A DNA stretch of 20,193 nucleotides, taken from positions 1 through 20,193 of IMG/VR virus record IMGVR_UViG_3300049919_000191. One strand, 5' to 3'. Shown one piece after another: positions 2,851 through 18,611 of this stretch (its first letter is position 1; every line of letters begins with the position of its first letter). The position numbers were made by a program, and so were the translations under genes. A model generated the notes under the pieces. It had not been told where the DNA came from. It did not search any database and worked only from the letters and a program-made list of their open reading frames with translations. This DNA is from a virus.

Positions 2851-3207
2851 TTATTCTTCTTTTTTGCTTCCATCAATTACGTGCAAGCTAAACGAAGGTG
2901 TAGAATCTTTCTGAATCTCTTCACCTTTTTCGTCATCATACTTTTCTTGATACAACTCTACACTTAGGCTACGGTTGAACTCCATAATCCATTTACTCGC
3001 TTGGAATCGGACATTAGCTGGTGTTGCATTATCTTCCAACAACATGATCATGGTCTTCAAAGCCTTAGCCATGTGTGGTTTTACTTTCCTAGCAAGAGAA
3101 AGTAGTGTTTTTTCACGAAGCTCCCTATTGGTAAGATCGTCTGTAACGGTAGGTTCTTTAACCTTGTGTCCGAGAAGTTTTTTCTGAACGTTTGCGTCAA
3201 ATGGCAT
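2851..3207 (-). CDS. Probable terminase small subunit
   Basis: 118 aa, read mainly from position: it sits 11 nt upstream of terL in the same direction. The small subunit recognises viral DNA and hands it to TerL. The protein is charged, with a helical middle (LREKTLLSLARKVKPHMAKAL) followed by a segment with RFQASKWIMEF, the kind of ending seen in small terminases, and an acidic tail. I chose ATG 3207: an in-frame TTG at 3255 lies inside a hairpin (3233-3263) and would add 16 unlikely residues. The Shine-Dalgarno at 3207 is weak (AATAAGAAAAATAA). No helix-turn-helix is obvious, so the call rests on synteny. Confidence 0.65.
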   Translation of the reverse strand: MPFDANVQKKLLGHKVKEPTVTDDLTNRELREKTLLSLARKVKPHMAKALKTMIMLLEDNATPANVRFQASKWIMEFNRSLSVELYQEKYDDEKGEEIQKDSTPSFSLHVIDGSKKEE

Positions 3208-3232
3208 TTTATTTTTCTTATTCTGAAAACGA

Positions 3233-3263
3233 CAAAACCCCGTGCTAAAAAGCAAAGGGTTTG
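3233..3263 (-). terminator. Hairpin between tRNA cluster and terS, possible terminator or processing site
   Basis: Arms CAAAACCCC / GGGTTTG enclose TGCT-AAAA-AGCA (as read on the plus strand). On the minus strand the hairpin is followed by GTCGTTTTC, a short imperfect U tract. It lies just after the last tRNA and just before terS, so it could end or process the tRNA transcript. The stem has small internal mismatches, so termination is only partial at best. Confidence 0.45.
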
Positions 3264-3821: not shown

Positions 3822-3867
3822 AATGACGCTTTTCCGTTGCGACAAACGACCCTAAGGTAAGGTGTTC

Positions 3868-4014
3868 TAGTTTTATTTAATGATGGTCATTGTGTGCTCA
3901 GTGCAATAACATCACTGCCCAACGTTGGTGGCCTGTAGGGGTTCATCCACCCGCTTCTACGCCAAAGTTATCAACCTTTGTTTAGCACGCAATGGCCATC
4001 ATTAAATAAAACTA
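3868..4014 (-). ncRNA. 147-nt structured element with a 31-bp terminal stem, leader of the tRNA cluster
   Basis: Arms at 3868-3898 and 3984-4014 match over 31 bp with two differences, enclosing 85 nt. Read as minus-strand RNA (the direction of the promoter just upstream) the two differences are A-C mismatches; read as plus-strand RNA both become G-U pairs. Inside are hairpins CAGTG-N9-CACTG, a GTAG/CTAC stem stacked on GGGT/ACCC, a CCAACGTTGG palindrome and CAAAG/CTTTG. I recognise no named RNA family. It may be a leader, an RNase target or a separate small RNA. Confidence 0.55.
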
Positions 4015-4031
4015 AATACCTGAGAAACTCT

Positions 4032-4059
4032 AGTATACCACGGTTTTGTAAAAACGCAA
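4032..4059 (-). promoter_or_regulatory. Sigma70-type promoter for the tRNA leader
   Basis: On the minus strand, -35 TTGCGT (4059-4054), 16-nt spacer, -10 TATACT (4037-4032), preceded by CCGTGG, the motif shared with the divergent promoters near 5.5 kb. Transcription would start near 4025, a few bases before the 147-nt element, and run through the tRNAs. Confidence 0.65.
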
Positions 4060-4076
4060 GCGGTTGTTTAAATAAA

Positions 4077-16633: not shown

Positions 16634-16819
16634 TTACTCCATGTCATTTGTAGCCACACCAACGATATTTCCGTTGTAGTCCCTGAGGTTAATATAAGGG
16701 TAATCCTCTACTTCACTATGCTCGATTTTATCGGCTAGCTCTCGCAAAATTCGAGCTATCTCGTACATAGCGCCGTCGCTGAATGCAGCGTTATTTGTTT
16801 CTATACTTAGGTCAAACAT
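16634..16819 (-). CDS. Small phage/plasmid protein, NAAF...VARILRELAD type
   Basis: 61 aa. DLSIETNNAAFSDGAMYEIARILRELADKIE followed by LRDYNGNIVGVA is a compact alpha/beta pattern found in many phage and plasmid small proteins. No activity known. A perfect AAGGAG lies seven bases before ATG 16819, inside the end of the preceding gene; the two genes abut. Confidence 0.75.
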   Translation of the reverse strand: MFDLSIETNNAAFSDGAMYEIARILRELADKIEHSEVEDYPYINLRDYNGNIVGVATNDME

Positions 16820-16945
16820 TTAATAACTCCTTTTAGCTTCGCGCAATTTGGCGCGGTCTGGTTTATTTGTCTTGACAAGACTATACGTAGTCTTGTTTTC
16901 CCGCGTTTTTGTCGCGGGTTTTGTTTTCTCATGTGATTGCTGCAT
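16820..16945 (-). CDS. 41-residue basic protein
   Basis: Start ATG 16945 shares TGATG with the stop of the upstream gene and follows AAGGGG. The product (begins MQQSHEKTKPATKTRENK, ends KLREAKRSY) is very basic and probably disordered. A longer frame from TTG 17044 exists, but its first 33 codons run over the gene below in another frame and lack a ribosome site, so I reject it. Function unknown; nucleic-acid binding is a guess. Confidence 0.6.
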   Translation of the reverse strand: MQQSHEKTKPATKTRENKTTYSLVKTNKPDRAKLREAKRSY

Positions 16946-17165: not shown

Positions 17166-17576
17166 TTAATAAAAAGAAAAATAAATTTTATTGTCGTCTG
17201 TTTTAAACAACGATCCGGAAATTAAGCCATGTTCGGCTTGAGACTGGTAATCTGACCATTGTTCCGGTGTAGTATCACTACCCATATCAAACCCCACGGG
17301 ATCGCGCATCTCCGACGATATAAACTGTATACACAATGCATTTAATTCAATTTCACTATATGCCTTTAATTCGTCTTCAGTCCACGCGCCAAACTTTACG
17401 ACGTATTCAATGAATGCTTCTTTTTTGTCTGGTGTATCCAGTAACATAAAAATTCTACTATCTGAGCAAGCATTACCCCAAGTGATCTCACCGGCCCTGT
17501 CGCCTATTTCAGCACCCGACGCGGAATAGTCACTTGGCGCGACATTGTTGAAAAAATCAGTAATATCTAGTTCCAT
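17166..17576 (-). CDS. Acidic phage/plasmid protein, DYSAS...EIGDRAGEITW type
   Basis: 136 aa, acidic. DYSASGAEIGDRAGEITWGNA near 17-37, LLDTPDKKEAFIEYVVKFGAWTEDEL near 46-71, ELNALCIQFISSEMRDP near 77-93 and GSLFKTDDNKIYF at the end follow a family I know from phages and plasmids; its role is unknown and it might be a DNA-mimic type protein only on the basis of charge. AAGG precedes ATG 17576. It heads the small-gene module. Confidence 0.75.
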   Translation of the reverse strand: MELDITDFFNNVAPSDYSASGAEIGDRAGEITWGNACSDSRIFMLLDTPDKKEAFIEYVVKFGAWTEDELKAYSEIELNALCIQFISSEMRDPVGFDMGSDTTPEQWSDYQSQAEHGLISGSLFKTDDNKIYFSFY

Positions 17577-17633
17577 AAAAGCCTTGAGGTTGGTTAAAAC
17601 TAAGATTTTACTCTAATTCAATGGCGTTCATGC

Positions 17634-17665
17634 TTATTTTGAATTTATTTGTTGTTTGTAGCGTA
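17634..17665. repeat. 32-nt dispersed repeat, second copy of 16160-16191
   Basis: 30 of 32 bases agree with the 3' end of the 46-residue membrane gene, including the codons ATNN and the stop. Upstream of it (17666-17740, minus strand) a hydrophobic but start-less frame remains (LVTQVLITSFAG), so it may be a decayed duplicate of that gene. Confidence 0.6.
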
Positions 17666-17784
17666 AAAGCAACGCGCTAAAACCATGCTCAAAGCCTGCA
17701 AAACTAGTAATTAATACCTGAGTAACCAAAAACAAAATAATCGGTTTAACGTGATTCTACAAGGTTTTGAGGGATTATGCGTAT

Positions 17785-17812
17785 TTGCTGTATAACTTTA
17801 CAGTGTTATACT
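17785..17812 (+). promoter_or_regulatory. Rightward promoter with an SOS-box-like operator in its spacer
   Basis: -35 TTGCTG (17785-17790), 16-nt spacer, extended TGT and -10 TATACT (17807-17812). The palindrome CTGT-ATAACTTT-ACAG (17788-17803) lies between the two boxes and fits the LexA consensus CTGT-N8-ACAG. A bound repressor would block the promoter. No rightward gene follows; the transcript would enter the repeats and run antisense to the gene at 17974-18234. Confidence 0.5.
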
Positions 17813-17816
17813 TTGT

Positions 17817-17876
17817 TTTCTGACTGTACTGTATAGTTTCTGACTGTACTGTATAGTTTCTGACTGAACCGTCTAG
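17817..17876. repeat. Three tandem 20-bp repeats
   Basis: Unit TTTCTGACTGTACTGTATAG at 17817-17836 and 17837-17856 (identical), with a diverged third copy at 17857-17876 (TTTCTGACTGAACCGTCTAG). The 20-bp period is close to two helical turns, as in replication iterons or arrays of operators. Confidence 0.85.
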
Positions 17877-17893
17877 TCATGTACCGATCAGTC

Positions 17894-17995
17894 GCAGCGC
17901 TGCATCGAGTTAAGCGTCTATGGGTTTTTGGTATGTAAGGCTTTTTGGTTTAAACCAGCTATAGGTTTTTGGATCAAAAGTCTACGGGTTTTTGG
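17894..17995. repeat. Palindromes and four GGGTTTTTGG copies
   Basis: GCAGCGCTGC (17894-17903) and TGGTTTAAACCA (17946-17957) are perfect palindromes. GG(G/C)TTTTTGG or AGGTTTTTGG recurs at 17922, 17939, 17963 and 17986, the last inside the 3' end of a gene. With the tandem repeats next to them, the picture suggests an origin or a regulatory array. The rest of 17577-17973 holds no gene. Confidence 0.6.
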
Positions 17996-18234
17996 AACTT
18001 ATTGAAATCAAGCTCTACCCTGCATAACAACGAAATCCAATCTCCCTTAAACCTACGATATATCTCTAGTTCGTGAGTATGCCCAATAAGTCTACCGTAG
18101 TTTATGAACACACCTACGTTGAATTTCTCTTCTATGTCTTCTGCTACTTGCTCTATTGTTTTACTAGACCAGTCTTTTTTCAGATACCTTAGTATGTTTG
18201 TTATTTTTCTTTGAGGGTCTTTTGTGTAGGTCAT
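17974..18234 (-). CDS. Unknown small protein, WSSKTIEQVAEDIEEKF type
   Basis: 86 aa from ATG 18234. KITNILRYLKKDWSSKTIEQVAEDIEEKFNVGVFINYGRL is a helix-helix-strand pattern I do not recognise. A TTG at 18315 would give 113 aa and overlap the upstream stop, but the extra segment covers a promoter-like TTGACA (18288-18283), so I prefer the shorter form; the ribosome site (AAAGAAC) is weak. Its last codons contain one GGGTTTTTGG repeat. Confidence 0.55.
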   Translation of the reverse strand: MTYTKDPQRKITNILRYLKKDWSSKTIEQVAEDIEEKFNVGVFINYGRLIGHTHELEIYRRFKGDWISLLCRVELDFNKFQKPVDF

Positions 18235-18259
18235 TCTGTTGTTCTTTATGTTCTTTTGA

Positions 18260-18288
18260 TACACAAAACACAAGTATTGTGTTGTCAA
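18260..18288 (-). promoter_or_regulatory. Promoter-like site with a palindromic spacer
   Basis: Minus strand -35 TTGACA (18288-18283), 17-nt spacer, weak -10 TGTGTA (18265-18260). The spacer holds AACACAA-TAC-TTGTGTT (18283-18267), a perfect inverted repeat that could be an operator. The poor -10 keeps confidence modest. Confidence 0.4.
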
Positions 18289-18311
18289 GTTTGTGCAGAT
18301 TGTGCGTCGGT

Positions 18312-18611
18312 TCAACCAACCAAATGTAACGAAAACACCTCGGTGATTGCTTGCATAGTTTTGTTAAAACGATGTTTAATACCTAGTAAGAAACTTCTTA
18401 TTCCAGAGAAAAAGTTGTTAAACAGATAAAACAACCAACAAACAATATTAGGTAAAACTAACACCAAGATTATAACCAATAAACCTTGGTTGTTGGTGAC
18501 AGCAACAAAAGCTGGAGCAAGATCAGGTGGAGCACACCCTAGCAACACAACAGTCACTACAACCAGCAACAAAGCTCTACAGGTTTTTGAAATAAAATTT
18601 GTAATTTTCAT
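18312..18611 (-). CDS. Lipoprotein-like membrane protein near the lysis gene
   Basis: 99 aa. Residues 12-25 are hydrophobic and end in a lipobox LLGC with C26 as lipidation site; residues 43-66 (GLLVIILVLVLPNIVCWLFYLF) form a second membrane segment, followed by a basic tail. A lipobox plus a transmembrane helix recalls unimolecular spanins, but only 16 residues separate them, far too few to span the periplasm. A holin or antiholin is another option given SleB three genes upstream. ATG 18611 sits in a 20-nt tandem duplication and has no strong Shine-Dalgarno. Confidence 0.6.
   Translation of the reverse strand: MKITNFISKTCRALLLVVVTVVLLGCAPPDLAPAFVAVTNNQGLLVIILVLVLPNIVCWLFYLFNNFFSGIRSFLLGIKHRFNKTMQAITEVFSLHLVG

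Follow-up and report, generated by a model that had tools for sequence, protein, structure and literature searches.

Based on the architecture of a repeat array and its conservation in relatives, we propose that a stretch of an environmental viral genome is, in whole or in part, an iteron-type replication origin of a tailed phage, a reading to which we assign a probability of about 60%. This reading is favored because the array occurs at one site per genome and is accompanied by DnaA boxes in most members of the group around Limnohabitans phage DC31, and because the slot that it occupies takes exchangeable repeat arrays and the element is conserved independently of the neighboring genes. The DNA analyzed (hereafter the window) is a 20,193-base IMG/VR fragment of the genome of a freshwater tailed phage; it encodes a portal protein, a large terminase, four tRNAs, PhoH, a ClpP-like protease and a cell-wall hydrolase, together with one ORF whose translation, on our reading, resembles a cytosine methyltransferase. 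The first 13,199 bases of the window are matched at 100% by another viral contig (G001), which stops before the array. There is no DnaA-box cluster in the window, and for this particular phage the origin inference thus rests on the layout of the array plus its adjoining G-T-rich repeats; as the sequence is a fragment, it is possible that a second candidate site lies elsewhere in the phage.

The array begins with three 20-bp copies in exact tandem (17817-17876), the first two identical and the third at 85%. These had been recognized in the original prediction, which missed a fourth, degenerate copy that keeps the 20-bp step and whose core starts in register at 17882 (Table 1). The four copies therefore follow one another at exact 20-bp steps, in helical phase, and the near-palindromic core GACYGNNCRGTC is common to all of them. 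Over 69 copies from 12 contigs, the conserved positions are the half-sites GACTG and C-GTC, the center being less so; since these copies were picked with the same consensus, this conservation is a description and not a test. A chance origin of the array and of the G-T-rich repeats is excluded, neither being reproduced by dinucleotide shuffles: no match to the 20-nt repeat turned up in 100 shuffles, even when 3 mismatches were allowed, and in a 414-bp region 37 of 40 positions followed the periodicity, vs at most 26 for any period of 8-60 in 1000 shuffles. The flanks of the array contain 60-75% A+T (61% for the whole fragment). The stretch had been described as gene-free, which holds for most of it but fails at the right end, where the last G-T-rich copy falls within a minus-strand ORF.

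Table 1. Positions of the features discussed in the text.
Feature	Sequence	Positions	Strand	Remarks
Flanking gene	window	17166-17576	-	136 aa, PHROG 24784, function unknown
A+T-rich gene-free stretch	window	17577-17816		array to leftward gene start; no DnaA box
Iteron copy 1, TTTCTGACTGTACTGTATAG	window	17817-17836	+	core 17822-17833
Iteron copy 2	window	17837-17856	+	identical to copy 1; core 17842-17853
Iteron copy 3, TTTCTGACTGAACCGTCTAG	window	17857-17876	+	core 17862-17873, 9/10 consensus positions
Degenerate iteron copy 4	window	17877-17896	+	core TACCGATCAGTC 17882-17893, 9/10 consensus positions
Palindrome GCAGCGCTGC	window	17894-17903		exact; directly after array
G-T-rich repeat 1, GGGTTTTTGG	window	17922-17931	+	exact
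G-T-rich repeat 2, GGCTTTTTGG	window	17939-17948	+	one mismatch
Palindrome TGGTTTAAACCA	window	17946-17957		exact; absent from relatives compared
G-T-rich repeat 3, AGGTTTTTGG	window	17963-17972	+	one mismatch
G-T-rich repeat 4, GGGTTTTTGG	window	17986-17995	+	exact; inside 3' end of ORF 17974-18315
Flanking ORF	window	17974-18315	-	at most 113 aa; ATG start at about 18231 possible; no confident family
GQW...RGQ...G family loci	L027	18514-18738, 19045-19311
GQW...RGQ...G family locus	L069	3497-3754
GQW...RGQ...G family locus	L083	3515-3880
DnaA cluster	L083	3925-4065		compared with L027 cluster, 81% identity
DnaA cluster	L027	20215-20353		compared with L083 cluster, 81% identity

The G-T-rich repeats begin about 30 bp past the array and span 17922-17995. 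Four copies had been announced; those at 17922 and 17986 are exact, and those at 17939 and 17963 carry one mismatch. Across the whole window, GGGTTTTTGG is found six times with at most one mismatch, for 1.4 matches expected. An inverted G-T motif, ACCAAAAAC, lies at 17725-17733, about 90 bp left of the array. The two palindromes also noted earlier are present and exact, but two perfect 10-mer palindromes were seen in 14 of 1000 shuffles, and a chance origin is only weakly excluded for this pair. In several relatives the position of GCAGCGCTGC is G+C-rich and non-palindromic; neither palindrome being conserved, both were rejected as functional elements. Further left, the plus strand carries three terminator-like hairpins, G+C-rich and ending in T tails, at 16777-16918 in a gap between minus-strand genes.

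A blastn search with a 4.2-kb query around the array matched one phage record among 50,697, that of DC31, and the matching segment is the array itself (84 bp, 76%, E 1e-6). In DC31 the array lies inside a 930-bp unannotated gap (19820-20750), in which an alternating ACGCACGCGCACGCG block is followed by five TTATCCACA boxes around TCTTATATAAGA, by A+T-rich TTATATAAGTAAACGC repeats, by eight 20-bp copies and finally by three AGGTTTTTGG copies. The five DnaA boxes are perfect and are the only ones in 76 kb, for 0.9 expected; the A+T-rich 16-mers of the gap contain 72-77% A+T. The two phages are otherwise related at 48% for the portal, 42% for the terminase and 67% for PhoH, and in both of them the PhoH and ClpP-like genes and then the array are found in the same orientation. 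The DC31 gap thus resembles the window in the array consensus, the 20-bp step and the order and direction of the G-T repeats, but it has eight copies instead of four, as well as five DnaA boxes and A+T-rich 16-mers, both of which are lacking in the window. Passages of the DC31 paper describe clear plaques and mention neither an origin nor repeats of this kind (PMC12195039).

When 2.9 million viral contigs were scanned for linked pairs of sites, 23 loci emerged. About 15 of these hold arrays above shuffled sequence, array phages reaching chain scores of 14-41 vs a maximum of about 7.5 for shuffles; several of the remaining loci have two weak sites and do not exceed chance. The gene at 17166-17576, used as an anchor for finding more relatives, gave no loci. 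GG(N)TTTT repeats follow the array, with side and direction maintained, in the window, DC31, G002, G010, G011, G012, G013 and G015; the first repeat lies about 30-80 bp beyond the last core and, in most of these sequences, the next is about 25 bp further on. The DC31 copies are of the AGGTTTTTGG form. Viral contigs L108 and L114 show this arrangement as well, so that at least eight contigs share it with the window and DC31. As the GG(N)TTTT motif was defined after viewing the sequences, its P-values are indicative only. The conservation of the repeats in relatives, proposed as a check of the original prediction, is therefore observed in DC31 and several contigs, with both order and orientation maintained. 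Terminator-like hairpins end the neighboring gene just right of the G-T repeats in L060, L062 and L010, and their loops carry a TTTTT G-T-type motif. In a 107-kb contig of 60% G+C (G014; L086 16900-17110), only distantly akin to DC31, about eleven copies of the same 20-bp array occur without a DnaA cluster and without downstream G-T repeats.

Such a layout is reminiscent of an operator array, in which a dimeric regulator of the phage or of its host, with TetR- or GntR-like half-sites, would control the leftward cluster starting at 17576. Phased operators are a common regulatory layout, the cores are near-palindromic with strongly conserved half-sites, and in both the window and DC31 the array is upstream of a leftward gene. 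This explanation is nonetheless unlikely. Directly beside the array, G002 and the window have genes without homology to those of DC31; the element thus stays while its neighbors vary. No sigma-70-like promoter was found in the gap, and none of the DC31 early proteins scanned resembles a repressor. Moreover, the array occupies a single locus in each of the genomes of DC31 (76 kb), G010 (74 kb), G011 (77 kb) and G014 (107 kb), a count that refers to paired sites in long contigs and leaves aside one weak 3-mismatch match in G010; an operator set would be expected at several promoters. This single location, together with the DnaA-box cluster that adjoins the array in DC31-like phages and is linked to it in two lineages, favors an origin over a multi-site regulon.

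When considering all array-bearing phages and their relatives, the candidate origin appears to be modular. In DC31 and its close relatives, the array is located between the TTATCCACA cluster and the G-T repeats, and both modules are present in DC31, G010, G011, G013, L108 and L114, as well as in a second lineage (G018, G019, G020, L063). The DnaA cluster occurs without the array in P26059A, G004 and L109, and the array without the cluster, in the available sequence, in the window, G002, G012, G014 and G015. The array slot of L109 and G004 contains other A+T-rich repeats instead; in L109 these are 18-bp repeats, ATGCTTATATATGAAT, at about 3850-4070, between the DnaA cluster and the G-T repeats. 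In L060, 9-bp GCTTATAT repeats fill the slot. The second lineage is only distantly related and has an unrelated terminase, yet its DnaA cluster and 20-bp array co-occur, and the cluster shares 81% DNA identity with that of DC31 over 141 bp. Such identity despite unrelated terminases suggests that the cluster was exchanged or is under strong constraint. A copy of a host oriC was rejected as its source, the DnaA core pattern having no match in a collection of 84,980 species.

The second lineage also bears on the idea of a pac or partition (centromere) site, bound by an oligomeric terminase small subunit or by a ParR/ParB-like protein. Some plasmid centromeres are known to have tandem 20-bp sites, and the array of this lineage is situated upstream of the genes for both terminase subunits, at a distance of less than about 1.5 kb. 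However, the distance to the small terminase grows to about 8 kb in DC31 and, for the candidate gene at 2851-3255, to about 14.6 kb in the window, and a pac site would not be expected to carry DnaA boxes. A partition protein was not identified either, and a plasmid-like lifestyle is not indicated, the plaques of DC31 being clear in the passages cited above (PMC12195039). We therefore regard a packaging or partition role as improbable. Nor was a plasmid relative retained: none of 72,556 plasmids matched the DC31 region, and a query with only its DnaA segment gave two matches at chance level (E 0.1 and 0.4). Finally, the array could be a decoy that titrates a DNA-binding protein of the host. Its distribution is not tracked by any phage protein, and a common host protein is conceivable, since the isolates DC31 and P26059A both infect freshwater Comamonadaceae. 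The fixed association with DnaA boxes and G-T repeats speaks against a decoy, as does the scan of 84,980 bacterial and archaeal species genomes, no contig of which contains the array pattern of two full sites; this explanation is very improbable.

No known initiator family was detected among the DC31 early proteins scanned, no known initiator domain among the window neighbor proteins, and no protein whose presence strictly tracks the array; an initiator of a new kind is possible. The DC31 proteins of 88 and 149 aa, considered on the basis of phylogenetic profiles, were rejected as initiators, having distant homologs in array-less phages. A family of 75-90-aa proteins with a conserved GQW...RGQ...G motif is found near the origin-like site in several lineages (DC31, G002, G004, G010-G013, G015, G020), and also in array-less phages; it belongs to no known family. 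Its structural model is small, beta-rich and fairly confident (mean pLDDT 79), with no significant structural match, and we do not claim a DNA-binding role for it. GC skew, a check suggested with the original prediction, was negative or uninformative: the cumulative minima coincide with boundaries between divergent genes (at 35 kb in DC31 and 56 kb in P26059A) and not with the array, and the skew follows gene orientation; it was thus rejected as an origin marker. Of the initial alternative between an origin and a multi-operator switch, the origin gains from the conserved single-site array and from the DnaA cluster of DC31-like relatives; the missing cluster in the window, the unconserved palindromes and the GC skew do not support it.

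In the origin reading, a putative sequence-specific protein would bind the array, whose sites at 20-bp phasing share one face of the helix, probably as a dimer, because each core is near-palindromic. The adjacent A+T-rich DNA would then melt and the phage primase-helicase would be loaded. The conserved GG(N)TTTT repeats may act as a partner of the array, possibly in unwinding, priming or the binding of single strands. The host initiator DnaA is a probable helper in DC31-like relatives, where its box cluster flanks the array opposite the G-T repeats; the window phage seems to manage without this module. Among the papers searched, none describes an origin of this kind. Tentatively, these phages could harbor a previously undescribed family of modular origins, in which interchangeable DnaA-box (TCTTATATAAGA) and 20-bp palindromic iteron modules, the latter read by a putative initiator, are exchanged between distantly related phages and combined with a conserved GG(N)TTTT element.

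The origins of lytic environmental phages have rarely been mapped, and the array offers a precise and testable candidate that points to a putative new DNA-binding protein. DC31 on Limnohabitans is a cultured phage-host pair carrying this candidate, and natural variants lack one or other module; with this system, one could ask directly if a virulent phage borrows the host DnaA or relies on an initiator of its own. Among known systems, the ori of bacteriophage lambda consists of O-protein iterons inside gene O. Like it, the array has at least four tandem sites, each palindromic in itself, at intervals of about 20 bp, and in DC31 also A+T-rich DNA alongside; in contrast, it lies outside any initiator gene, no O-like protein was found, and there are extra GG(N)TTTT repeats and, in several members, a DnaA-box cluster. 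In SPP1, oriL and oriR are lytic-phage origins with repeated boxes for the initiator gp38; the repeated, here putative, initiator sites are similar, but the site sequence and host group differ and no gp38-like protein was identified. Origins combining iterons and DnaA boxes are known from plasmids of the RK2, P1 and F type, which, like the DC31-like phages, assemble DnaA boxes, iterons and short repeats in one gene-free stretch. Unlike these, the array has no match among the 72,556 plasmids searched and no adjacent Rep gene, is carried by clear-plaque phages, and belongs to a system in which either the DnaA or the iteron module may be missing.
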